NCBI GenBank assembly: GCA_012518845.1
Contig: JAAYRJ010000194.1
Location: forward strand, 1 to 37,431
Source of the DNA: Clostridiaceae bacterium
GTDB lineage: Bacteria; Bacillota; Clostridia; Saccharofermentanales; DTU023
DNA: 37,431 nt
Direction: 5' to 3'
A model generated the notes under the pieces. That model saw only the letters and a list, made by a program, of their open reading frames with translations, searched no databases and was not told where the DNA came from. The position numbers and the translations under genes were made by a program. Every line of letters starts with the position of its first letter. Position 1 is the stretch's first letter. Below are positions 18,004 through 37,431 of the stretch, in pieces.

Positions 18004-18289
18004 CTCCTACCACAAAATTAAATATAGTATATCATTATGGTATTTCATTAATAAACTAAGATTGTTTGGTCTATGTAAATTAAGATTGTTTTTATAACAA
18101 GAGCTCCGTCATAAAGACTTGGGTTTTGGATATTTAGTTTATTTTGATAAATAATCTATATATTCTAATAACCACGTTATTGTCTCAGGATGAACATAGT
18201 ATTCTACTGCATTAGTAATAATTTCATATGCAAACTTCTAATAACGAAATAAGTGAGGTGAAGGAATCTTTTCAAATTCTCTTTTGTTA

Positions 18290-21200
18290 GGATCACCCCC
18301 CACTTACGTGGGAAAAAGAAATTTCTTCAAACTCTGGTACATTTTCTTTCAGGATCACCCCCACTTACGTGGGAAAAAGTTCGATAAAATGCGTTTCGCT
18401 TCCAATATAACGGGATCACCCCCACTTACGTGGGAAAAAGCTTGTATTGTACTTTGGTTTATCTGCCTAGGCGGGATCACCCCCACTTACGTGGGAAAAA
18501 GTCGTGTAGTTTTAATGCTTCAAAGGCAAATTCGGGATCACCCCCACTTACGTGGGAAAAAGCAACTGTGAATGAATATCACGTTACAAATTATAGGATC
18601 ACCCCCACTTACGTGGGAAAAAGTAGCTAAGATCATTGGGGTTTCGGAATCAGCTGGGATCACCCCCACTTACGTGGGAAAAAGACTCATAGCTACATTG
18701 GTTCCATCATGGCCATAGGATCACCCCCACTTACGTGGGAAAAAGGCCTTCATCAAATGTCTGCATACTGTTGATCCAGGATCACCCCCACTTACGTGGG
18801 AAAAAGGCCTTCATCAAATGTCTGCATACTGTTGATCCAGGATCACCCCCACTTACGTGGGAAAAAGAATAAAATCAGAAAACTCTAAATCGAAAGCTGA
18901 GGATCACCCCCACTTACGTGGGAAAAAGTGATATGCTTGTGTTGTCTGCGATCGTGAAGTGGGATCACCCCCACTTACGTGGGAAAAAGGGAAGCAAATT
19001 TCAGAACTTATTACTCAATCGGGGATCACCCCCCACTTACGTGGGAAAAAGTCAACGTTTGGTGCGTTTTTACCTTGTTCCCAGGGATCACCCCCACTTA
19101 CGTGGGAAAAAGACAAAATTCGTGAAGGTGTGTCTGATATAGCAGGGATCACCCCCACTTACGTGGGAAAAAGCCCCTTGATATACTTAAAGTAAAGGCA
19201 GTTATGGGATCACCCCCACTTACGTGGGAAAAAGACTCTAACGCTTACCTGCTTGTCGATCAGTGCAGGATCACCCCCACTTACGTGGGAAAAAGCAATC
19301 GTACACTGCATCAGCATATCTGCTAGCAGGATCACCCCCACTTACGTGGGAAAAAGAATCATTTCGTCCTACTCCTTGCTGGCATACTAGGATCACCCCC
19401 ACTTACGTGGGAAAAAGTGATGCAATACATCAGCTTATCTAACGCTTCAGGGATCACCCCCACTTACGTGGGAAAAAGCGATCTGGGGATCGAATGAATA
19501 TGCAATAGAGAGGATCACCCCCACTTACGTGGGAAAAAGCACAGCCGGTATATTTAGGTACAGATACATTGAGGATCACCCCCACTTACGTGGGAAAAAG
19601 CTATCTTTTGTATCGTCGATTGCAAATAATCCGGGATCACCCCCCACTTACGTGGGAAAAAGCGCTTGGTGCGCATTCCTTGCAGGTACGGTGTAGGATC
19701 ACCCCCACTTACGTGGGAAAAAGTAGCATGGCTAGTGCCACAGATAGCTCTACTAGGGATCACCCCCACTTACGTGGGAAAAAGCATATTCAGGAACGGT
19801 CATATCTTGATTTCTAAGGATCACCCCCACTTACGTGGGAAAAAGTGGGCTTTAGATAAATTGGGTATCATGAACCAAGGATCACCCCCACTTACGTGGG
19901 AAAAAGCTTCTGTTATGCTTTTGATATGCTTCAGTATCGGGATCACCCCCACTTACGTGGGAAAAAGGCAGAATTCAAGCGACTTTTATATAGTTGATCA
20001 GGATCACCCCCACTTACGTGGGAAAAAGTATTATACAAAGGCTTAGATTTTGATGGAGTTAGGATCACCCCCACTTACGTGGGAAAAAGTCAGAAGAGTG
20101 CTTGCTGATATTGGCTATCCCGGGATCACCCCCACTTACGTGGGAAAAAGTTAGGATTGACGGAACACACTTCAAGGCAACTGGGATCACCCCCACTTAC
20201 GTGGGAAAAAGTGCTATGCTCTTGGTGGAATGGCAATCAAAGTAGGATCACCCCCACTTACGTGGGAAAAAGGGTTACAGTGTATCGGCAACTGCTACTT
20301 GTGCAGGATCACCCCCACTTACGTGGGAAAAAGCTTTAGAATTGCATGAGCAAGGCAATGTCAACAGGATCACCCCCACTTACGTGGGAAAAAGCTTATT
20401 GGAACAAAGCAAACGTAATGAGCCACGGGATCACCCCCACTTACGTGGGAAAAAGATCGTCTCAGCATATTTACTCCACTCAATGCTGGGATCACCCCCA
20501 CTTACGTGGGAAAAAGTTAGACAAAGATTTGAAATGGTGCGAGGTTCAGGGATCACCCCCACTTACGTGGGAAAAAGCTATCCACTCATGCCACTCTAGC
20601 AGTGTGTAGTAGGATCACCCCCACTTACGTGGGAAAAAGTGAATCGCAGAGCAGAGGGAATGCCGGTAACGAGGATCACCCCCACTTACGTGGGAAAAAG
20701 CTTATCAGAATTAATAGACAAAATAGATAGTGAGGATCACCCCCACTTACGTGGGAAAAAGAAGATATTTTAGAAGCCTTAAAACCGTTATTGGGGATCA
20801 CCCCCACTTACGTGGGAAAAAGCCGCCTTGATCTTGTGTACGTGAAAGCCAGCTAGGATCACCCCCACTTACGTGGGAAAAAGTATCAGAAAAATTAAAA
20901 GAAATTGAGTACAACAGGATCACCCCCACTTACGTGGGAAAAAGTGCTCTTGCTAAGCTATCTTCTTCGACAACCTGGGATCACCCCCACTTACGTGGGA
21001 AAAAGGCTCCTACGATCAGCTCGATCAGATCGTTATTAGGATCACCCCCACTTACGTGGGAAAAAGTGGATCAAAGCAAGACATGAAGCTCGGAATGGAG
21101 GATCACCCCCACTTACGTGGGAAAAAGCAGAATTTCTATAAACAAAAATGAGTACCAAGAGGATCACCCCCACTTACGTGGGAAAAAGTTAGTGTGCCTG

Positions 21201-21738
21201 TCGCTATCCTTTCAATTAACAGGATCACCCCCACTTACGTGGGAAAAAGGCAGATAGGGCGGTTTGCGGCTACGCAAGTCCGGGATCACCCCCACTTACG
21301 TGGGAAAAAGTTCATAATTTGGTCTTCTTGACCCCAGCTCATAGGATCACCCCCACTTACGTGGGAAAAAGAACGTCCATGTCCATTATTTGCTGGTATA
21401 GTTGGGATCACCCCCACTTACGTGGGAAAAAGCTAGAAGCGACGGAACACGGTCTTCGATCGCTAGGATCACCCCCACTTACGTGGGAAAAAGTTGCTTG
21501 CTTCGTCTTTGCTCCATAATCCAACAGGATCACCCCCACTTACGTGGGAAAAAGACGGATTGTTTCTTCTTTGTCTCCAATGCCTTGTGGATCACCCCCA
21601 CTTACGTGGGAAAAAGATTAACTCTAATATATATGAATCAAACCAATTAGGATCACCCCCACTTACGTGGGAAAAAGAAATTACACGAAGAAAACAGGAT
21701 AAAAAAAGGAGGATCACCCCCACTTACGTGGGAAAAAG
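18290..21738 (-). CRISPR. Type I-E CRISPR array, 57 repeats / 56 spacers; transcribed on the minus strand
   Basis: Repeat on + strand GGATCACCCCCACTTACGTGGGAAAAAG (28 nt); transcribed form CTTTTTCCCACGTAAGTGGGGGTGATCC with a 5-bp stem CCCAC-GTAA-GTGGG and an 8-nt handle GGTGATCC. Spacers mostly 33 nt (61-bp period). Orientation from similarity to known I-E repeats ending GGTGATCC/GGTGAACC and from the adjacent cas2. Confidence 0.99.
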
Positions 21739-21761
21739 ACTTGTCAAAGCTTGATTTCAGG

Positions 21762-22670
21762 CTATTTCTTTTCGAGAATTTCATGAAATTTATTTACTTT
21801 GCCTGACAAGTCTAAGATTAATTTTGCATCCGCTAGAGCCCTATGTTCAACTTTACTATTAATTTCGTAAGATTTAACCACCGTTTCTAATTTATAATTA
21901 CTCAGCAACATTTTTTCTCTCTTAACTAGTTGCTGCAAATCGATAAGCTGATTGGTCAATGGCTCTTTATTTAATTGAACTAAAGTATAGTTGATAAATC
22001 TCATATCGAAATTAACGTTATAACCAACAATAATTTTCTCCCCTATGAAATCTTTAAGGTCCTCCAATACACTCAAAAGATCCTTACCCTCCTCTTGTAA
22101 AAGCTCGTCCGTAATACCTGTTAACTCCTTGATCTTATTTGGTAATTTTTGCTTATATTTTATTAATCTTTGAAATTCTTCTACGCCATTTTCAGTAATT
22201 TTAAGGGCTCCTATTTCAATAATGGAATTGTGCCTTGGGTCTAAACCATCTGTTTCAATATCGAGGATTACAAAGCTACTTTCTATTTGTTTTTTGGAGA
22301 TCCTTTTGGCAGAAAATTGTTTTTGTTTTCTGAATTTTGCTGCCTTGCTAAATCCAAACTTCGTATCATTGGACTTCGACTTTTGATTATTCCCCTTAGG
22401 GTAAATTACTAGAGGAATACCATCATAATCGATTACCTTCTGCTGTGTATTGTGGGTTTCAAATGCGTAGCCTATTTCATTTCGTGCAGCATAACTAAGA
22501 GTTGCTTCACCCTTACCCACACTTTCTATGACCCTAGACCAGAGATGTTCTCTTATTCGCGAATTAAAATTACCAACATACACTCCAGTTGCAATCTCTT
22601 GCATCCATTTGGATAAGTCACCTCTAAGAGAGGGAGTGGATTTTCTTAGAGTTATAACTGTTAAAGGCAT
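21762..22670 (-). CDS. cas2: Cas2 (type I-E) fused to a C-terminal DEDDh (DnaQ-like) 3'-5' exonuclease domain
   Basis: Cas2e N-terminus MPLTVITLRKSTPSLRGDLSKWMQEIATGVYVGNFNSRIREHLW; C-terminus DIETDG (DxE), NVNFDMRF (D), HRALADAK (HxxxxD). Confidence 0.95.
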   Translation of the reverse strand: MPLTVITLRKSTPSLRGDLSKWMQEIATGVYVGNFNSRIREHLWSRVIESVGKGEATLSYAARNEIGYAFETHNTQQKVIDYDGIPLVIYPKGNNQKSKSNDTKFGFSKAAKFRKQKQFSAKRISKKQIESSFVILDIETDGLDPRHNSIIEIGALKITENGVEEFQRLIKYKQKLPNKIKELTGITDELLQEEGKDLLSVLEDLKDFIGEKIIVGYNVNFDMRFINYTLVQLNKEPLTNQLIDLQQLVKREKMLLSNYKLETVVKSYEINSKVEHRALADAKLILDLSGKVNKFHEILEKK

Positions 22671-23627
<957 letters not shown>

Positions 23628-23654
23628 CTATGTCTCCTTTTAGCAAGCATTCTT

Positions 23655-24293
23655 CTATGCTTCCGGAATTACGGTCATCATACCAAACCCGTAGGCTTTC
23701 TTCTTACCAAATCCTTTAGTTAGAGTTTTTATAAAAATATCCTTATCAACAATTTGTAGAAGACCCTCGTAGGTCACCTTGTTAAGCCTTAGTAACTTAC
23801 CATTTGCTTGCTTATAGGGGACAAACTCTCGTTCTGTTATATGAAAGTTATCTTTTTGGAGTCTGAAACCATTTTTCTCACTTCTATCATACAAAAATTG
23901 CATTTGTTCTTCGACAGAAACTAGGGGCTTGATGCGTCCTCTTTGTTGACCTTTCACTTCAATTTTAGCAATGACCGGGTTGAGTGTAATCCTAAATCTA
24001 TAATTTTTATCTTCTTCTAATCCTTCCAGAAAGGAAGTATAGTCCTTAACTTGACCTGACTTTTCCACACCGTATTTTTCCAACTCAGGAATAGAGGGGG
24101 CTTGCTCGCTGACTATAAGTAGATAGTCCTTGCCCTGCAAGCGGTCTATCCGCCAAAGTTTTCGCCTTCTAATACCTTGGGATACTTCATTAGGAAATGA
24201 ACTTTCTACCCAATTGTGAAAGGCAGTCAGACGCGTTAAATCTTTTATTTTTCTTCTATTGCGTGTATCAATCTCTACTCTTGATAAATACAT
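23655..24293 (-). CDS. cas6e: Cas6e crRNA endonuclease
   Basis: MYLSRVEIDTRNRRKIKDLTRLTAFHNWVESSFP, C-terminal GFGKKKAYGFGMMTV glycine-rich loop. Confidence 0.95.
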   Translation of the reverse strand: MYLSRVEIDTRNRRKIKDLTRLTAFHNWVESSFPNEVSQGIRRRKLWRIDRLQGKDYLLIVSEQAPSIPELEKYGVEKSGQVKDYTSFLEGLEEDKNYRFRITLNPVIAKIEVKGQQRGRIKPLVSVEEQMQFLYDRSEKNGFRLQKDNFHITEREFVPYKQANGKLLRLNKVTYEGLLQIVDKDIFIKTLTKGFGKKKAYGFGMMTVIPEA

Positions 24294-24302
24294 ATAAGTC
24301 TC

Positions 24303-25046
24303 CTAGTTCTCTAGCGCTGCGAAAGCATCATGTTCTTCCTCTGACTTGGCTTGCTTATCGTTATCATGCTCAAGCTTGTCTATAACTAGCTTGTAAGCAG
24401 TCTCATTGCGATAGGCAAAAGTTCGAGCCTTTTGATCAAATGAAATAACATTATCTTTACGGTACTGAATAAAATCATTTTCTAGTAAATCAGCATCAAG
24501 ATAGACATCAAGCTCAATCTTTCCCTTATGCTTTTTTTGATACCAAGTACTTGCCTGCCAATCCGTCTTTTCGAGTGCCTCAGTAACCCCCTGCTCAACA
24601 ATTCCAAGATAAAAATCATAAGTTAAGGGAAGTGCCCTACGCCCCATAAATGTTTGAAAATATGGTTTTTGAACAGCTTTGGCTAATTCTTCAACAAAAT
24701 CATCATTCGCATGACCAAGAGCAACGACAAACACAAAATCTTCTAGATAGTACCTGTTTGTGACATAGTTTCTATCGAAGGTCCCATTCGGCTTGTATTT
24801 TGTGGCGACATGGTAGTCCCTCAAGAGATTACCTTTTTGATCAATCCTAACTGCGTAGTCTAAAGCTGCCAGGTCGCTTATTTTGTCATCATCCCCTCTC
24901 CTATAGCCTAAGCTAGCAGCTAGTAAGCCTACAAGGGCACTTTTTGAAGGATAAAGGTCAGAGTGCCTTACTTCAAAATTTGAATCCGTGCCCCAAGATT
25001 GTAAGGGACCAGAAAACTTTAATAGTATTGTTTTCATCCTAATCAC
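24303..25046 (-). CDS. cas5e: Cas5e
   Basis: LLKFSGPLQSWGTDSNFEVRHSDLYPSKSALVGLLAASLG. Confidence 0.96.
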   Translation of the reverse strand: MIRMKTILLKFSGPLQSWGTDSNFEVRHSDLYPSKSALVGLLAASLGYRRGDDDKISDLAALDYAVRIDQKGNLLRDYHVATKYKPNGTFDRNYVTNRYYLEDFVFVVALGHANDDFVEELAKAVQKPYFQTFMGRRALPLTYDFYLGIVEQGVTEALEKTDWQASTWYQKKHKGKIELDVYLDADLLENDFIQYRKDNVISFDQKARTFAYRNETAYKLVIDKLEHDNDKQAKSEEEHDAFAALEN

Positions 25047-26127
25047 CTAGTTCATCCATCATAGATGTCAAATCTCCTGCCACTTTATTAACTAGATCAG
25101 CTAAGCTTTCAGTCTCCGTACTAATGGCATCTATATGTTTTTGACCAGTTGCCAACAAGTAATAGCTGGCCTTGGCTGGGACAGCAAATCTTTGGACATC
25201 CTTTTCAGCTTCAAATATTTTGTCAATTGATTCTTTTGAAAAACCCTTATTTGACCTAACCGGCTCCTCAAAGACACTGACTAAGTTTATCGGCCTATCT
25301 TCACGTAAATGAACTAAGAGTAATTGAGGGAGGGTTTGATTAGCAAAGGTGTTTATTTTCCCTGTAGGCATGGAATTTGAAAAGGCCTCAATAAATAATT
25401 TAAGGGCATTAATTGTATTACTATTATCCCCAACTTGTTTGACAAATTCATGCACAGCAACATTAGCATACCTGTAGAGTGTAGATGAGTTATATTCCAC
25501 AGTCCCTAACATGCCAGCACCTGCATTATCTTCTGGCTGCAAATCATCAACAGCCGTAAAAAAATCAAATTCAGTCTGGACAGCGTGGGTCGAGATAGAA
25601 TGTGCAACTTGTGCCGAAGCATCTTCATTTAAGGAAGGATCATCAGCTACCATTCGACCAAACAAGGCAATATCGATAGATGGATTACTTCTTAAAATCG
25701 CCTGTAATTCTTTCTTTTCTTCGATTCCCTTGAGAGCTGCCTCCGCTAGCTTTTCGGCTTGCAAATCACCAAGGAAAAACAAGGCTCTTGCCTTATCATC
25801 TTTGAGCTTTAAATTCGCTTTTGTTAAAACATTCGAGGCCATTTTCAGGGCGTCTGCATCTTCAATTGAAGAATCTAGTTTCCTAATCTTGTCTTTGACA
25901 TAATCGGCAATATTGAGTGTCCTTACTCCGACATTTTGGCCTGGGCTGTTTGCATTAAAGTATTGCCTAATAGCTCTTTTCCAGGACTGGGAGGAAACAC
26001 GAGCCCGGCGGACACCTCCATATTGAGCCGTCTTGGGACTACCCGTGTCATCCCTGTTAATATTAGAGGGTGGAACGGCCTGGATAACATGTAAATCTAA
26101 ATACAATCGCTTATTCTTCATTTTCAA
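25039..26127 (-). CDS. cas7e: Cas7e (CasC/Cse4)
   Basis: LDLHVIQAVPPSNINRDDTGSPKTAQYGGVRRARVSSQSWKRAIRQYF. Confidence 0.97.
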   Translation of the reverse strand: MKMKNKRLYLDLHVIQAVPPSNINRDDTGSPKTAQYGGVRRARVSSQSWKRAIRQYFNANSPGQNVGVRTLNIADYVKDKIRKLDSSIEDADALKMASNVLTKANLKLKDDKARALFFLGDLQAEKLAEAALKGIEEKKELQAILRSNPSIDIALFGRMVADDPSLNEDASAQVAHSISTHAVQTEFDFFTAVDDLQPEDNAGAGMLGTVEYNSSTLYRYANVAVHEFVKQVGDNSNTINALKLFIEAFSNSMPTGKINTFANQTLPQLLLVHLREDRPINLVSVFEEPVRSNKGFSKESIDKIFEAEKDVQRFAVPAKASYYLLATGQKHIDAISTETESLADLVNKVAGDLTSMMDELGD

Positions 26128-26740
26128 CTCCTTCTTTCTCTGTGTTCTCTTGTTTTCTAAATCTATAATATTCTCTGGCCCAGCCTATCCTGATCCTGTC
26201 TTCATATCCCCTGATATACCAATAGAGATCTTCGCTAAGTTTGGCAAAATTGATTTTTACAGATCCCTTGGATTTGGATTTGAGCAGAGTTAGCATTTGC
26301 CTCAAATAATGTAGCAATTCTTCATAGGTTGAAGCCGTAATCATGGTATTAAAACGTCGATCAAGAGCTAATCTAGCCTCATCATTTCGCATTGTAGCAA
26401 GCCAAGTTCCCATATTGTCTTTCTTTTTTTGCTTGGCCTCCTCTGACGACATAAGAACACTTTCTGAATTGCCTTGCTGATAAAGAGCATAAAGCTGCAA
26501 GCTATGTAAAACAGCCCTTTCTTCAGCGGTGCTTTTACTTCCCACACCCAAAAATTCCTCTGGCATGTTCTCGAAAACTAGAGGCCAAACTTCTACCGTT
26601 TGACTTATATCTCTGCCAATAGAATTTCTGAGCTTAGCTAGAGTAGCCTTGCCTGAAGTTGTTTCTAGCGTATTGGATAGTAGAAACAAAATTCTGCCAG
26701 CCACTTGATAAATGCTTGCTTTGTTTTTTGTATGAGCCAT
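26111..26740 (-). CDS. cse2: Cas11e (Cse2)
   Basis: Size, position, and YEELLHYLRQMLTLLKSKSKGSVKINFAKLSEDLYWY. Confidence 0.93.
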   Translation of the reverse strand: MAHTKNKASIYQVAGRILFLLSNTLETTSGKATLAKLRNSIGRDISQTVEVWPLVFENMPEEFLGVGSKSTAEERAVLHSLQLYALYQQGNSESVLMSSEEAKQKKKDNMGTWLATMRNDEARLALDRRFNTMITASTYEELLHYLRQMLTLLKSKSKGSVKINFAKLSEDLYWYIRGYEDRIRIGWAREYYRFRKQENTEKEGVENEE

Positions 26741-26793
26741 ATCTTTTCCTTTCTAATGTTGCTGTTGATACTTATTTTTTGTTCTTGCTTTTG

Positions 26794-28491
26794 TTACTTG
26801 TTTTGAATTCCTTTGTTTAGGAAAAAAGTAAAACTGTTGTAAGCCGTTATGATATTAAAGCTCCTCTCGTCTTTGACAATACCTCTTAAATCCCTAGTAG
26901 TTGCATTGTCAATTAGTCTTTGCGCCTCTCCTTTGACGATTTTCTCAAGGATGTTGAGCCAGATTTGCATTTTTTTATCTTTTTCATCCTTGGGTTTAAT
27001 TCCCGCCAACCAAGCTCTAAAAGGCTCATCTATGGCAAAATACACAGCTTCTAGTTCCCTGTTAATAAAATCCTGACGAGCTTTCTCTTTAATATTTCTA
27101 ATTTCAGCTATGTCTGATAGAAAAGCTCGATAGGTGTGATTGATAACAACTCGGGTTTTTTCTACAAGATTAGTAATACGTGGAACCCAATGATTTTCCT
27201 GAACGTCTGTCAAAACATAGTTATTAATTTGCAAGGAGTCTACCAGTTCATCAGTTGGTACCCAAGATGGGGCATTGCCATCATCTTGCATGCTAACAGC
27301 TTGAACACCAATGGAGATATTTCCTATGGTATCCCTTATTTCTTCTAACCAGTTAATAAGTTCCGGCATGTGCTGCATATCTTTTTCCGAAGTTGATGAG
27401 GGCATGGCTAAGAGACCAAAAGACCGCCATAAGGCTTGATTGGCCCGGTGTTTTCGGGGCGTAAAATAACCCTTATGCTCACCCTGTTCATTAAAACGCC
27501 ACAAGGTCATAGCTTCAATAAATTGGTCTTGGTGGTTCATGTCTGGCAGTTTAACCACTTGCAAAGAAAAAGCCTTATCTAAATCAGTATCAGGGTCAAT
27601 GTAAACAGCCCTACTCCAAGTTGTATATAATTCTGCTAAATTGTCTGGATTATTGTTGCTGAAGTATTTCTCTAATAATTCCCCACTAGAATACTCCCAA
27701 CATGGCCTTTGTCTTTTAGCAGAAAATTCATCTCTGGGATGGACAAGTATTGTATTGAGCAAAAGAGTCTCAAAAAGATTAGTACCTTCTAGATATATTC
27801 CACCTAAATCATATAACCAGCCCTTGGAAGCTTTATATTTCTCTTTGCCAAAAATCGTCTTATCGGATAGGCCTGTGTAGCCTTGGTAGGTAATGAGCCA
27901 CCTAGCAACTTGATCCGCTCTGAGAACTTCCTTATTGTATTTAGCATTGTATTTTGGTGAAAACAAAGCTACCTTATTACCACTTTCTGAAACAGTCCGG
28001 TCTAAAAACTTACCGGATATAGCACTGGCCTTTTTCCTGCTGATTTTATCTGCAGATAAATCTCCAGCTAAAACTTGAAAAAATGGATATTCATCGTCAA
28101 ACAAATAAAAGCGGTCGTGCCATTTGGTCAAATAATCATTGACTGTAGAGGGAAAGTGTTTTTTCTTCCACAGGTTATCCCAGCAAGCGTCAAGATCGTT
28201 TATATAATAGGGCAGATCATCAAATTCGACCTCAGATTTTTCCTGAAATTTTTCATCTAAATCTAGGTATTCATAAGCATTTCCCTCAGCATCAAATCTA
28301 GAATAAACCGTATTTAAAATAGCCAAGAGTATTCTTAGAATTGCAAAATCCTGGGTTTTTGTGTCTCCTGCAATTCTCTGTATCTTATGAGCGTCCTCAA
28401 ACAAGGTCTTGAGAGAAACAAGTTTGTTCTCACTTTCATCCAGATAGATAACCCCTATCCAATTTTCGTCCAGCAAATTAAATCTACTCAT
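26794..28491 (-). CDS. cse1: Cas8e (Cse1)
   Basis: FNLLDENWIGVIYL, position between cas3 and cse2, 565 aa. Confidence 0.95.
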   Translation of the reverse strand: MSRFNLLDENWIGVIYLDESENKLVSLKTLFEDAHKIQRIAGDTKTQDFAILRILLAILNTVYSRFDAEGNAYEYLDLDEKFQEKSEVEFDDLPYYINDLDACWDNLWKKKHFPSTVNDYLTKWHDRFYLFDDEYPFFQVLAGDLSADKISRKKASAISGKFLDRTVSESGNKVALFSPKYNAKYNKEVLRADQVARWLITYQGYTGLSDKTIFGKEKYKASKGWLYDLGGIYLEGTNLFETLLLNTILVHPRDEFSAKRQRPCWEYSSGELLEKYFSNNNPDNLAELYTTWSRAVYIDPDTDLDKAFSLQVVKLPDMNHQDQFIEAMTLWRFNEQGEHKGYFTPRKHRANQALWRSFGLLAMPSSTSEKDMQHMPELINWLEEIRDTIGNISIGVQAVSMQDDGNAPSWVPTDELVDSLQINNYVLTDVQENHWVPRITNLVEKTRVVINHTYRAFLSDIAEIRNIKEKARQDFINRELEAVYFAIDEPFRAWLAGIKPKDEKDKKMQIWLNILEKIVKGEAQRLIDNATTRDLRGIVKDERSFNIITAYNSFTFFLNKGIQNK

Positions 28492-31330
28492 CTTTCTTCT
28501 CCATCTCTTCGTATGTTAAACCATATTTCATATCATAATGAAGTATTTTATTTCCCAACTGAAAATTTAAATTTTCATCAAAAATAATGCCTAATGTTCC
28601 CTTGAGCCAGCTTTGCTCTTGCCATTCTTTTAAATGTTTAACATTGTATGCTTCAAGTTCTTCGATTGTCTGGTCAACATTATTTTCGCCATACTGATAA
28701 GAAAAAACAGTAGGTAATCTCAAGCTTGAGGCTGCTATTTTCATGGCTACTTTTGGATTATCAATCTCGTTTGAAATATCTTGATTGTCATCAATAAAGC
28801 TGTAACCACTATCACATTTTTTTAATGCGATAACTTCTATCGTTTCTTGTATATCCCGTACTTGAGCGTAGCCGTATTCCTCTGACTGCTTGGGAGATAT
28901 GTCACCCAGCCAAGAAATTAATGAGATCGTTCTATTTCTACGTGCCACATATTGTGGTCCATTTAAACGATAGCTTTCTGCTCGCTCTTGCTGAGAAGTT
29001 CGTTGTTTTTTAAAATTTTTGAACATTTCTTGATATTTTTCTTGTTTATCATCAGCAAGTAAAATATCTTCCTTGCCATATACTTTTTGTACCAAGGGAG
29101 AAATGTCGCTTGGCAGTTTGAGCGTGTCTGGCAAATAATACTGAGTCCTTGCTAAAAGATAGCCTCCATAAACCGTCTCGGAACCTGCCTCAAATTCTAA
29201 ATTCGAACTTGTTCCAAGGAGATAGAGGACAGGCGTTTGAAAATGCTCAGGCCGCTTTATCTCATGCCTATGAAGTCGCCCAACTCTCTGTATTAGCAAG
29301 TCAACAGGGGCTAAGTCGCTAATTAATAAATCAAAATCAATGTCTAGTGATTGTTCAATCACTTGCGTGCCTATAATAATTTTATGTTTAGGTCGTTTTG
29401 CCTTTTTACCAATCAGAGCCAGCAATTCATTTTCTTTTTTCACTCTCTCTGTATCAATAAAATAAGAGTGAAGCAGGAAAACTCTATCTTCCCCATATTT
29501 CTCAGAACATTTTTTTGCCATGTCTTGAGTCCTATTGACTGTATTTAGGATTATCCCAACGTTGCCTCCTCTTGCTAGGACCTTATCCAAAATCGCCTCT
29601 ATGTCTGTGTCATCGATTCTCTTTATGGCAACAACGGTATCTTTCTCCTGGACAAATTCATCTTGCTGACAGATTTGCTTGCCATCTGTATAGGTAATTA
29701 AGGGATAGGCAGTGGTATTAAGATCGACTGACCTAACTATTTCAATTTCTTTATCCCGAAGACCTTTACCTTTGAGATAGGCTTTGACCAGTTCTTCTCT
29801 TGTGCTTGCAGCTAGTGTTGCAGACAATAAAATAACAGGTACATTATAGGCTCCAAGCCACTCCAGCACCCTGATTAAATACTGGTTCATGTAGGCATCG
29901 TAGGCGTGGACTTCATCAATGATAACAACTTTCCTACTGATGCCTAAATGACGTAAGGCCAAATGTTTTTGTTTTAAAGCGGCAAGTAAAATATGATCGA
30001 TTGTTCCCACAACAAAGTCATCAAGTATTGATGTTTTCCTACCAGAAAACCATTGGTTAACGGCGATAGAACCTTCTTCTTCAGAATTTTTATGGTAGCC
30101 ATCCTCTTCAAAATCAAAACCTTCATCTATGTTAATGTTTTTAGCCCTAGGCAGGTTAGCAAACTCTTTGTTTAAGGCAGATTTAGCATGAAGCAACTGA
30201 ACAGAATTCTTCTCGTCCAGAAATCCATCTAGCTTCTCCAGCCAAGTTTTAATCCGAGAAAACATGCTATTGGAAGTTGCTTGTGTCGGCAAAGCAAAAA
30301 AGATACCTCTTTGACCTAGTTTAGAGGCTAACTGCTCAGCTCCTACCAAGGCTGCTTCGGTTTTACCAAGTCCCATAGTCGCTTCAAATATAAAGAGCCC
30401 TGGATTTTGACAACTATCAATCGTTTCAAAAAATACTCTTTGGGCATTACGCGGATTAAATTTCTCACCAAATCGCTTCTTATAAATTGAGTTTATATCA
30501 AATACATAGTCTGGCTCTCTAGTACCAGGCTTGAACCATGCTTTCCAAGCCCGAGTTGATCTTTCCATTTGGTCTATGTTAACTTCTGCATAAACATTTA
30601 TAAGTGGAAAATAGGATTCGTTACTAGCAATCCAGTCAGCCATGATAAGGAGGCCTGATAGTAAAACTTGAGCTGTCTGCTTGACACTAGGAAGGTCTTC
30701 TACAGATTTATGGCCTGTAGTCTTAAGTGCCCAGTCAAAGATTGTTTGCTGTGTTTTACGCCACTTGCTAGCAAGCTTATCCTCAGGATCTTCTGAATCC
30801 CTTTGGATATAGTGGCTAAGATAGGATAAATGATTATTATAAAAATTTGGGTCATCGATTGGTTTGCCATGATGGCCACCGATAATTGATGATATATCAT
30901 CCTTGACAGCAAAGTGTCTTAATAGGACTTGGCCTGCCAGAGCATGGGACGTCCTAGCTTCCTTTGAATATAAGTGGGTACCTAAACCAGCAAAACCTGC
31001 TCTTTCCAGTTTTTCAATAAGGAAGGCATCTAAATCACTTGAGCCTGCGTAACTTTTTTGCTTTTGAAAAATTGGGGTTGCTTTTCCAAGGTCATGGATT
31101 GCCCCTAAAAACTGGACAAATCTTTTCCCGTCGTAGCTATCTTCATAGTTTAAGCCTTGTAAGATATGATGTTTTTGATTAGAACTCAGCCAGTGCTCCC
31201 ATAATAAGCCTATTATATTTTTTGTGTCTTCTAAGTGCTGGCTCAAAGGCAACCACATAAAGCCAAGCTTGGAATCTGACTTTTTTGCCCACAAGGGGTC
31301 ATTTTTAAACCATGAATACATATTTTCCAT
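28484..31330 (-). CDS. cas3: Cas3 helicase-nuclease
   Basis: HD domain LGAIHDLGKATPIFQ, Walker A EATMGLGKTEAAL, DEVHAYD, LLSATLA, QRVGRLHRH. ORF begins at GTG 31336, but ATG at 31330 is better spaced from AGAGGTG. Confidence 0.97.
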   Translation of the reverse strand: MENMYSWFKNDPLWAKKSDSKLGFMWLPLSQHLEDTKNIIGLLWEHWLSSNQKHHILQGLNYEDSYDGKRFVQFLGAIHDLGKATPIFQKQKSYAGSSDLDAFLIEKLERAGFAGLGTHLYSKEARTSHALAGQVLLRHFAVKDDISSIIGGHHGKPIDDPNFYNNHLSYLSHYIQRDSEDPEDKLASKWRKTQQTIFDWALKTTGHKSVEDLPSVKQTAQVLLSGLLIMADWIASNESYFPLINVYAEVNIDQMERSTRAWKAWFKPGTREPDYVFDINSIYKKRFGEKFNPRNAQRVFFETIDSCQNPGLFIFEATMGLGKTEAALVGAEQLASKLGQRGIFFALPTQATSNSMFSRIKTWLEKLDGFLDEKNSVQLLHAKSALNKEFANLPRAKNINIDEGFDFEEDGYHKNSEEEGSIAVNQWFSGRKTSILDDFVVGTIDHILLAALKQKHLALRHLGISRKVVIIDEVHAYDAYMNQYLIRVLEWLGAYNVPVILLSATLAASTREELVKAYLKGKGLRDKEIEIVRSVDLNTTAYPLITYTDGKQICQQDEFVQEKDTVVAIKRIDDTDIEAILDKVLARGGNVGIILNTVNRTQDMAKKCSEKYGEDRVFLLHSYFIDTERVKKENELLALIGKKAKRPKHKIIIGTQVIEQSLDIDFDLLISDLAPVDLLIQRVGRLHRHEIKRPEHFQTPVLYLLGTSSNLEFEAGSETVYGGYLLARTQYYLPDTLKLPSDISPLVQKVYGKEDILLADDKQEKYQEMFKNFKKQRTSQQERAESYRLNGPQYVARRNRTISLISWLGDISPKQSEEYGYAQVRDIQETIEVIALKKCDSGYSFIDDNQDISNEIDNPKVAMKIAASSLRLPTVFSYQYGENNVDQTIEELEAYNVKHLKEWQEQSWLKGTLGIIFDENLNFQLGNKILHYDMKYGLTYEEMEKKDE

Positions 31331-31358
31331 ATGCACCTCTTATTTTAGTGTTTTTAGG

Positions 31359-31394: not shown

Positions 31395-31472
31395 GTAAAA
31401 ACCCCGCTCTCGCAGGCAAGAGTTGAACTATCCAACCTTTATATGGATCACCCTTGCGGGATCGCAAGAATA
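31395..31472 (-). ncRNA. Putative Cas-regulating mini-CRISPR RNA (CreR/CreA-like): degenerate repeat 1 (31472-31445), 22-nt pseudo-spacer (31444-31423), degenerate repeat 2 (31422-31395)
   Basis: Minus strand TATTCTTGCGATCCCGCAAG|GGTGATCC / ATATAAAGGTTGGATAGTTCAA / CTCTTGCCTGCGAGAGCGGGGTTTTTAC. Repeat 1 keeps the exact 8-nt handle after a 6-bp hairpin; repeat 2 matches the true repeat at 17/28 positions with stem CCTGC-GAGA-GCGGG in register. Confidence 0.82.
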
Positions 31473-31477
31473 TTAAA

Positions 31478-31483
31478 ATTATA
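31478..31483 (-). promoter_or_regulatory. -10 box (TATAAT) for the mini-CRISPR/cas3 transcript
   Basis: Perfect TATAAT on the minus strand 6 nt upstream of degenerate repeat 1; no convincing -35 seen. Confidence 0.55.
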
Positions 31484-31571
31484 AAGGTTGTATAAATATT
31501 ATCATGGTGATTTCTAAAAAGCAAGCAAAAATAAATAAAAAAATGTATCTGTTAAATGAAAAAGGGTCCAA

Positions 31572-31611
31572 TGGGTATGCGGACAAAATCTTGGACTTAA
31601 ATATTAGCACC
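31572..31611. mobile_element. 40-bp IS end relic
   Basis: GGGTATGCGGACAAAATCTTGGACTTAAATATTAGCACCA matches 37261-37300 at 39/40 positions. Confidence 0.8.
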
Positions 31612-31969
31612 ACTAGTATTTAGATGTAAGTCAAGGCCGTGATGCTTTAATTTCGTTTAGATCTTTTAATCCCTCAAGCCACGCGGGATAATTAATTTAT
31701 GCAGTTGAGGGCGTCGACTTCTCTCCTTGAGGTTTTTCCTTTCATCAACTATGTGCTTCATCTTACTAAAACAAATATAAAATCTTTGTTAAGTTCGTTT
31801 ATGTTTTCTAAAACTCCTCTATAACAGAGAATTTGAAGACTATGTGAATCTCTTTTGCACTATTAATTGAAGGAAAGTTAGCTTAGGTTAACAAAGGTTA
31901 CAGACAGAGCAATATTTTTAAATTAGAATAATATGTAAATTTATTATTATCTATGGAGAAAGATTATTT

Positions 31970-33292
31970 ATGATAAATAAAAATAAGAATCCTCGAGCAG
32001 AATTGCTGAAATCTTATATCCACCGTCTCAACGAGGGCGAAAGTCTGGAAAGCGTTAGAAAAGACTTTGTTGAAGCCTTTGAGATGGTAGAAGCTTCCGA
32101 AATTGCTATAGCCGAACAAGAGATGATTCAAGACGGTATGCCTATTTCCGAAGTACAAAAATTATGCGATATTCACTCTGCCCTCTTCCATGGGGCTACA
32201 CGTGAAGAACAGATTGCCAATGCCGATAAAGCGGTTGCTGAGTCTTTTGCTAGACAAGCCGAAGCTGGTGTTTCTGGTCATGGACTTATCCATCAAATGG
32301 TTGCTGGTGAGGCCAATACTGCTCTTGCCCTTTCTAAAATTGAGGGACATCCTGTTCATGTTTTCACAAAAGACAATGAGAAAATACAAGATCTGTTAAA
32401 CTTTTTGAAAGAAGGACTGGAAAAAGAGGAAACAAAAGAAGAATTAATGCTTCGCTTAGAAAAAACCCAAGTCATTCATGATCACTATGCTAGAAAGGGT
32501 GACTTGATTTACCCGCTCTTAAGTGTTGGTTATGGCTTTTCTGGACCCTCTGATGTTATGTGGGGAGTTGATGGTGAAATTAGAGCAGAGTTTAGGATTT
32601 TAGCCCTGGGAAAAAGAAAACTGGACGACTATCATGAGCGACTAGAAGCGGCCATTGTTAGGGCAGAAGAAATGATTTACAAAGAAAATAACATTCTGTA
32701 TCCGTTGTGTGGTAAAAATTTTACAAAAGAAGAATGGATGCGAATTTATTACGATATGGCTGGCTACCCACCGCTCTTCGCTGATGAATACCCTATATGG
32801 GCAGAGGCTGAAGAACAGCGTGAAGACCTTAAAACAATTGGTGGCAAATTAGCTAAAGATAGTAAAGATGCTGAGGCTGATGATTTTATAAGCATCGGTT
32901 CTGGCCAGATGACCAGAGAGCAAATCGAATCTGTTTTAAATACCATTCCCATGGAATTGACCTTTGTTGACCATGAAGACATTAATCGCTATTTTAACGA
33001 TGACGGAAAAGAAAAATTCTTCAAGCGACCAGATATGGCAATCGGTAGAGACGTTCATACCTGCCACCCGCCCCATGTTCAAGCTATGGTTATGGGAATA
33101 ATTAATCGTTTCCGGGATGGGCTAGAAGATACTATTGAAATCTGGATGGAGAAAAAAGGTGAGCCTGTCCTAGTCCTCTATCTGGCAGTTAGAAATGCCC
33201 AAGGAGACTATTTAGGAACGCTTGAATGTGTACAAAAAATGGGCTTTGCCACAAAACACTTTGAACAACAAGCCAAACTGAAGAAAGATTAG
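31970..33292 (+). CDS. DUF438 domain-containing protein with hemerythrin-like and PAS regions
   Basis: N-terminal LLKSYIHRLNEGESLESVRKDF...LCDIHSALFHG; VIHDHYARKGDLIYPLL HHE-like; C-terminal PAS-like domain. Confidence 0.88.
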   Translation: MINKNKNPRAELLKSYIHRLNEGESLESVRKDFVEAFEMVEASEIAIAEQEMIQDGMPISEVQKLCDIHSALFHGATREEQIANADKAVAESFARQAEAGVSGHGLIHQMVAGEANTALALSKIEGHPVHVFTKDNEKIQDLLNFLKEGLEKEETKEELMLRLEKTQVIHDHYARKGDLIYPLLSVGYGFSGPSDVMWGVDGEIRAEFRILALGKRKLDDYHERLEAAIVRAEEMIYKENNILYPLCGKNFTKEEWMRIYYDMAGYPPLFADEYPIWAEAEEQREDLKTIGGKLAKDSKDAEADDFISIGSGQMTREQIESVLNTIPMELTFVDHEDINRYFNDDGKEKFFKRPDMAIGRDVHTCHPPHVQAMVMGIINRFRDGLEDTIEIWMEKKGEPVLVLYLAVRNAQGDYLGTLECVQKMGFATKHFEQQAKLKKD

Positions 33293-36618: not shown

Positions 36619-37260
36619 CTATTCTAAAAATTCAATCAATTTTAATATACTTTTTAAAACCTCTTGAAAACTTAATTCACCAACAAAATTATTCTTCTTT
36701 CTGTATGCTTCCCATCTGTCTAAGAATATAGGATTATCCAGTTGAGTTAATAATTTTTTCATTTTAACAAAATCAAGTTCAGTATTTCTATAAGAAAAAG
36801 TATTTGTTAAAGCTTCTTTTACGATATCTTTATTTAACTCTTTACTTTTCATCATCCATATTAAATATAAATCAAAATAATCCTTACTTCTGCTATTCAA
36901 AAAACCTCTTGAATATACTGTTTCTAGCTTTTCAGCAACCAGCGTTTCAATAGGGCAGGCATTAACTGAAATCAAGTTTTTATCAAAGACACTCTCATAT
37001 TGATAGTTAATAGGATGAGGCGTGATTACATCACCAGTTGCCACATCTATAGGTACATACTGTTTTAAATTCTCAAGTTTTGCTAATAACATTACTCTAA
37101 AACCACCATAAAAATCTGCTTCTTTGATTGGCTTTATGCTGGCAATACTATAATCAATATTTGAGTCATTTACACCTAAGATGTCCCTAATCATTTTCTC
37201 AATGTTAGCTTCAGATATATGTTTATTCTTAAGTTGAAAATCCATATCGACTGTCGCTCT
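36619..37260 (-). pseudogene. AbiEii/AbiGii-type nucleotidyltransferase toxin, 5' end removed by IS insertion
   Basis: Frame stays open upstream of the annotated ATG (...RATVDMDFQLKNKHIS), then joins IS sequence at 37261; PIETLVAEKLETVYSRGFLNSRSKDYFDLYLI is typical of the family. Confidence 0.75.
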
Positions 37261-37431
37261 GGGTATGCGGACAAAAACTTGGACTTAAATATTAGCACCA
37301 ATCGATTTTCTGTATTGTAATGGGCTTAACCCACCAAGTCCAATTTTTATCCTATCATTGACAAACCAATTTAAATAAAAATCAAGGGTATCTATAAATT
37401 CTTGAGTTGAAATACCATTCCATTTTCTGCC
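37261..37431 (-). mobile_element. IS3-family insertion sequence, terminal part; transposase C-terminus at 37285-37431
   Basis: Minus translation GRKWNGISTQEFIDTLDFYLNWFVNDRIKIGLGGLSPLQYRKSIGANI* resembles the C-terminus of IS3-family OrfB; runs off the window edge. Confidence 0.85.

Follow-up and report, generated by a model that had tools for sequence, protein, structure and literature searches.

A type I-E operon and the degenerate mini-CRISPR in front of it

The window, by which we mean the whole 37,431-nt stretch of DNA analysed here, carries a complete type I-E operon in the order cas3-cse1-cse2-cas7-cas5-cas6e-cas1-cas2, in which cas2 is fused to a DnaQ-like exonuclease, together with a long CRISPR array:

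28484-31336, minus strand: cas3 (HD nuclease and helicase); likely start ATG 31330, with AGAGG before it
21762-28491, minus strand: cse1, cse2, cas7, cas5, cas6e (23655-24293), cas1 and cas2, the remainder of the type I-E operon
18284-21740 (end approximate), minus strand: main CRISPR array of at least 57 units; repeat CTTTTTCCCACGTAAGTGGGGGTGATCC, 28 nt, period 61

One spacer of this array, GCCTTCATCAAATGTCTGCATACTGTTGATCC, occurs in two adjacent units (18711-18868), a duplicated unit. On the other side of the operon, a divergent gene beside the cas promoter (31970-33292, plus strand) encodes DUF438, hemerythrin and PAS domains, and is possibly a redox or gas sensor. A 50-nt sequence is found twice, at 31572-31621 and 37260-37309 (90% identity, 5.7 kb apart), the former copy lying ~100 nt 5' of the cas promoter, and a partial profile match to an AbiEii-type nucleotidyltransferase domain (type IV toxin-antitoxin) lies near the window end, at 36619-37245.

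Directly beside this operon, upstream of cas3, two degenerate repeats surround a pseudo-spacer:

31472-31445, minus strand: pseudo-repeat 1, stem CTTGCG-ATCC-CGCAAG, then GGTGATCC
31444-31423, minus strand: pseudo-spacer of 22 nt (true spacers have 33 nt); 31444 is the PAM-position base
31443-31433, minus strand: guide seed TATAAAGGTTG, starting one base 3' of GTGATCC
31422-31395, minus strand: pseudo-repeat 2, stem CCTGC-GAGA-GCGGG, then GTTTTTAC
31390-31359, minus strand: 12-bp perfect stem-loop TTTTAGGGAGGT / ACCTCCCTAAAA, directly 3' of pseudo-repeat 2

All of the sequence described in an initial annotation of this DNA was found to be present, and two of its comparisons with the true repeat were reproduced: the last 8 nt of pseudo-repeat 1 (GGTGATCC) are identical to those of the true repeat, and pseudo-repeat 2 agrees with it at 17/28 positions. 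By hand count, pseudo-repeat 1 agrees at 14/28. Its hairpin nevertheless stands at the true-repeat place, and whilst both sides of the stem have changed (CTTGCG/CGCAAG versus CCCAC/GTGGG in the true repeat), pairing is kept even though most bases differ, which implies selection on the hairpin. The element is thereby a repeat-spacer-repeat unit with a Cas6-type hairpin and handle, which Cas6e would be expected to cut between 31452 and 31451. The stem of pseudo-repeat 2 is in register with that of the true repeat and also resembles a terminator, with a stem at 31416-31403 followed by G-U5. The stem-loop that follows, between pseudo-repeat 2 and the cas3 start, has an 8-nt loop and a U-run on neither strand.

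Guide, target and PAM at the cas3 promoter

The sequence that the pseudo-spacer matches lies in the same leader, over the promoter that precedes it:

31480-31494, plus strand: target protospacer; guide positions 1-11 and 13-15 paired, 12 mismatched; overlaps TATAAT
31477-31479, plus strand: target PAM AAT, in agreement with the AAY predicted from the window's own array
31483-31478, minus strand: -10 box TATAAT of the best-scoring promoter; -35-like ATGATA at 31505-31500, spacer 16
31524-31496, minus strand: alternative promoter of the extended -10 type; TTGCTT 31524-31519, 17 nt, TGA-TAATAT 31501-31496

The guide reads TATAAAGGTTG-G-ATAG, and the plus strand target TATAAAGGTTG-T-ATAA with AAT directly 5' of it. 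In the type I-E system of E. coli, the first spacer base is counted within the PAM; with a 28-nt repeat, what the initial annotation had numbered as pseudo-spacer positions 2-12 are therefore guide positions 1-11. Its target coordinates (31480-31490, plus strand, covering the -10 box) hold as given, whilst the guide seed that it placed at 31432-31442 is off by one and runs from 31443 to 31433. Likewise, it had recognised an AA-type PAM correctly, but read it as AAA (31476-31478) when the PAM is AAT at 31477-31479. This correction of PAM and register strengthens the case for a guide. Among the 57 units of the window's own array, 34 spacers begin with T, 22 with C and one with A; with T or C first in 56/57 of them, the expected PAM is AAY. 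Such a PAM is readable from array spacers alone, without any protospacer match. Across all collected loci, T or C is the first spacer base in 348/359 GGGGTGATCC units, again implying AAY.

The seed of a CreR should match the cas promoter at positions 1-5 and 7-11 beside a correct PAM; here this match is 10/10, next to AAT and over TATAAT. When the 400-nt upstream region was dinucleotide-shuffled with the pseudo-spacer masked, a 10/10 seed with an AA PAM arose in 1/3000 shuffles. Tested on those 400 nt, the 57 ordinary array units scored 5-7, apart from one at 9. By pattern search, the combined PAM and seed motif AANTATAANGGTTG has a single occurrence in the 1.77-Mb assembly, on TATAAT. We considered whether the element could be a CreTA and rejected this identity: seed and PAM coincide only at the cas promoter, and only leader, with no toxin gene, lies between that promoter and cas3.

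Two promoters could serve this leader. The TATAAT promoter has a weak -35 (4/6); the alternative was read by eye from the sequence, was not listed by the promoter scan, and would start transcription near 31489. The two arms of the match are inverted and within 60 nt of one another, and an RNA begun upstream self-folds (-28.4 kcal/mol) in a manner that could hide the guide. Since a start near 31489 could let the 5' arm mask the guide in this way, guide function favours the TATAAT promoter, from which transcription would start near 31471. The promoter scan of the window listed no promoter-like site between pseudo-repeat 2 and cas3, so that the cas mRNA would be either a read-through product or a Cas6e-trimmed leader.

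Recurrence upstream of other cas3 genes

No homologue of the leader was found at the DNA level in six congeners, and a DNA search of the genus returned short chance matches only; the nearest Cas3 proteins are ~50-54% identical. We looked for the arrangement rather than the sequence, in 153 distinct cas3-upstream regions, by searching for a hairpin followed by a handle and then for the best seed match with an AA PAM inside the same region. The best seed scores peak at 6-7/10, with a separate group at 10. With spacers deduplicated on their first 20 bases, a 10/10 seed to the own region was found for 10/106 repeat-like units, as against 5/16,200 comparisons with foreign regions, an excess of ~300-fold, well above chance and spread over independent relatives.

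Ten elements were then examined position by position, nine from the screen and L059 added by hand, as its hairpin loop exceeded the limit of the first script (a later search detected it automatically). They comprise the window, L040 (Kallipyga), L041 (uncultured Clostridia), L055 (Lentilactobacillus rapi), L059 (Lentilactobacillus parafarraginis), L064 (Loigolactobacillus bifermentans), L115, L130, L141 and L177. All nine others share the window's handle, hairpin, AAY PAM and seed rule upstream of a type I-E cas3; at these independent loci, guide and target both differ from those of the window, yet still match each other, each spacer fitting its own cas3 promoter region. Every target PAM is AAC or AAT. 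Over positions 1-13 there are five mismatches at position 6, nine at position 12 and zero elsewhere. A match at 1-5 and 7-11 was a condition of the selection; 13 and 14 played no part in it, and match in 10/10 and 9/10 elements. It is at positions 6 and 12 that Cascade flips the bases out. For most of the ten, the target lies over or next to the top predicted promoter, the predictions at all loci being consensus matches only; this placement is least clear in L040 and L059.

Two further mini-arrays, L049 (-615) and L165 (-265), match their own cas3 upstream region with a 9/10 seed, and are possible CreRs with one weakened position. L069 was discarded, as its 10/10 score came from a 'spacer' that is a reverse-complement repeat. 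True arrays were also sought in ten relatives with a loose repeat pattern, which gave mostly chance matches.

The main rival to a guide is a structured 5' leader, in which the arms CAACCTTTATA and TATAAAGGTTG would form an RNA stem around the CTTGCG hairpin and serve attenuation or transcript stability, without guiding Cascade. The folds are strong (z = -7.06, far from random, for 31495-31340; z = -3.07 for 31489-31395), the upstream extended -10 promoter is plausible and would place both arms in the RNA, and the 31416-31403 stem with its G-U5 looks like a terminator. Yet a stem leaves unexplained why an arm should begin precisely one base beyond a GTGATCC handle that is identical to the repeat's, why an AAY PAM should adjoin the other, and why the arrangement should recur elsewhere. 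In 6/10 elements (L041, L055, L059, L064, L141 and L177) the guide is in direct orientation to its target, for which no stem is possible, and mismatches confined to 6 and 12 would not be expected of a stem; as they fit guide-target pairing instead, they argue for the CreR assignment. No Rfam family reached the gathering threshold in the window, known riboswitches and leader RNAs included. Taken together, we regard this explanation as improbable.

More improbable still is a protein operator. On this view the 11-bp inverted repeat at the cas promoter would serve a repressor or DNA looping, and what looks like a mini-CRISPR would be left over from a decayed array. Its arms are perfect and one of them sits over the -10, but they stand 47 bp apart, start to start, and no candidate regulator lies beside the operon, the divergent gene being the DUF438-hemerythrin-PAS one. 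The relatives keep the guide rule and neither operator sequence nor symmetry; for the class, the repetition of that rule at independent loci speaks against a plain RNA hairpin and a protein operator alike. Lastly, that this is the dead end of an ordinary array, as two degenerate repeats (14/28 and 17/28) and a short spacer might suggest, with its promoter match due to chance, is scarcely credible given the ~1 in 3000 odds for the region, the 300-fold own-region excess across the class and a repeat 1 stem that still pairs despite its changed bases.

A probable CreR within the leader of its own operon

We conclude that, with a probability of roughly 0.88, the minus-strand unit 31472-31395 is a CreR in the form of a degenerate mini-CRISPR, predicted to act on the type I-E operon behind it, and that its guide RNA very probably lets Cascade dim production of its own operon. 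The CreR-like reading proposed in the initial annotation passed the comparison across independent type I-E loci, with AAC or AAT as PAM and mismatches at 6 and 12 alone. CreRs are reported for types I-B, I-E and V-A (PMC13131331; also PMC12737573), and share with our element a mini-CRISPR beside cas genes, a guide partly complementary to a cas promoter and predicted autorepression by the Cas effector. The difference from CreRs as described there is one of layout: in the window, the mini-array lies inside the leader of the operon to be repressed, and the target is upstream of the guide, over the promoter that they share.

Other natural guides bear comparison. The CreA of CreTA likewise has two divergent, degenerate repeats and an 8-nt Cas6 5' handle, requires seed positions 1-5 and 7-11 with 6 and 12 irrelevant, and represses its own promoter (PMC8501985), as predicted for the window; it is, however, a type I-B system with a toxin gene, whereas ours is type I-E with a cas operon and no toxin between guide and promoter. 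Further afield, a Cas effector can be turned on its own operon by quite different means. In type II-A, the long-form tracrRNA (tracr-L) directs Cas9 to the cas promoter, and so has in common with the window a natural RNA guide, a short complementarity and a Cas effector as repressor of its own operon (the last predicted here), but it relies on Cas9 and tracrRNA chemistry, without a mini-array and without Cas6.

The window element is a new, well-supported and uncommonly compact example of CreR, and self-control by CreR is already known. Less usual are the single leader for guide, target and cas operon, a spacer 11-12 nt short and a terminator-like pseudo-repeat 2. We do not claim the own-leader layout as new: L041 has it, and the CreTA guide already represses its own promoter. 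Of the elements found, only the window and L041 combine guide and target in one leader with the target placed upstream; the other CreR-like elements have their target 3' of the mini-array, closer to cas3. What the window offers is a natural and strongly supported instance, from an uncultured lineage of Clostridia, of a CRISPR effector put to a second use as a brake on its own operon. It also yields a sequence rule, namely the handle, an AAY PAM and a seed match at 1-5/7-11 in which 6 and 12 are free; in type I-E loci of Clostridia, Peptoniphilaceae-type genomes and lactobacilli, this rule picks out CreR-like elements more often than chance would.

How might such a device work? We propose that the leader would be transcribed from the promoter at ~31505-31478, and that Cas6e would cleave pseudo-repeat 1 at the foot of the hairpin, yielding an RNA starting GUGAUCCA-UAUAAAGGUUGGAUAG, with a predicted Cas6e-dependent 5' end of GUGAUCCAUAUAAAGG / GUGAUCCAUAUAAAGGUUGG; its 3' end, at pseudo-repeat 2, could be made by Cas6e, by the terminator-like stem and U5, or by both. 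Loaded into Cascade, the short guide would pair with the cas3 promoter (seed 1-11, AAT PAM), and Cascade sitting over the -10 and start region would block RNA polymerase. With a short spacer and matching that ends near position 15, Cas3 would not be fired: by analogy with published type I-B work, partial matching would prevent cleavage, and a 22-nt pseudo-spacer fits the repress-only length in Haloarcula, where spacers of <=24 bp repress without interference or primed adaptation (PMC10989794). Canonical crRNAs would compete for Cas6e and Cascade, so that abundant crRNA, or an inactivated Cascade, would bring cas expression up.

More tentatively, and with rather more doubt than confidence, we posit a two-level feedback device in one transcript, in which the leader of the cas mRNA doubles as the CreR precursor. 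A single cut by Cas6e in pseudo-repeat 2, or termination at that repeat, would both free the guide and set the amount of cas mRNA, whose new 5' end might then be capped by the strong 12-bp stem at 31390-31359. Guide production would then depend entirely on activity of the very promoter that the guide targets, which would couple crRNA load, Cas6e level and cas transcription within a single RNA. The own-leader layout allows a direct test of whether one RNA can serve as both cas mRNA leader and guide, and of feedback from crRNA load or anti-CRISPRs on cas expression.

The relatives also differ in spacer length. From handle to repeat 2 stem core, the distance is ~39-41 nt in L040, L041, L064, L115, L130 and L141, and 27-28 nt in the window, L055, L059, L177 and L165, a difference of 11-12 nt, or two Cas7 footprints; these two classes, full and shortened, may point to selection for Cascade complexes that repress but do not recruit Cas3. 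A terminator-like repeat 2 is found in the window and in L141. Finally, pseudo-repeat 1 stems frequently have an inner T-A pair (e.g. CCTGC/GCAGG; L055, L115, L130, L141, L177 and the window) where ordinary repeats have C-G (CCCGC/GCGGG), which could lower Cas6e affinity or keep the element from recombining with the array.
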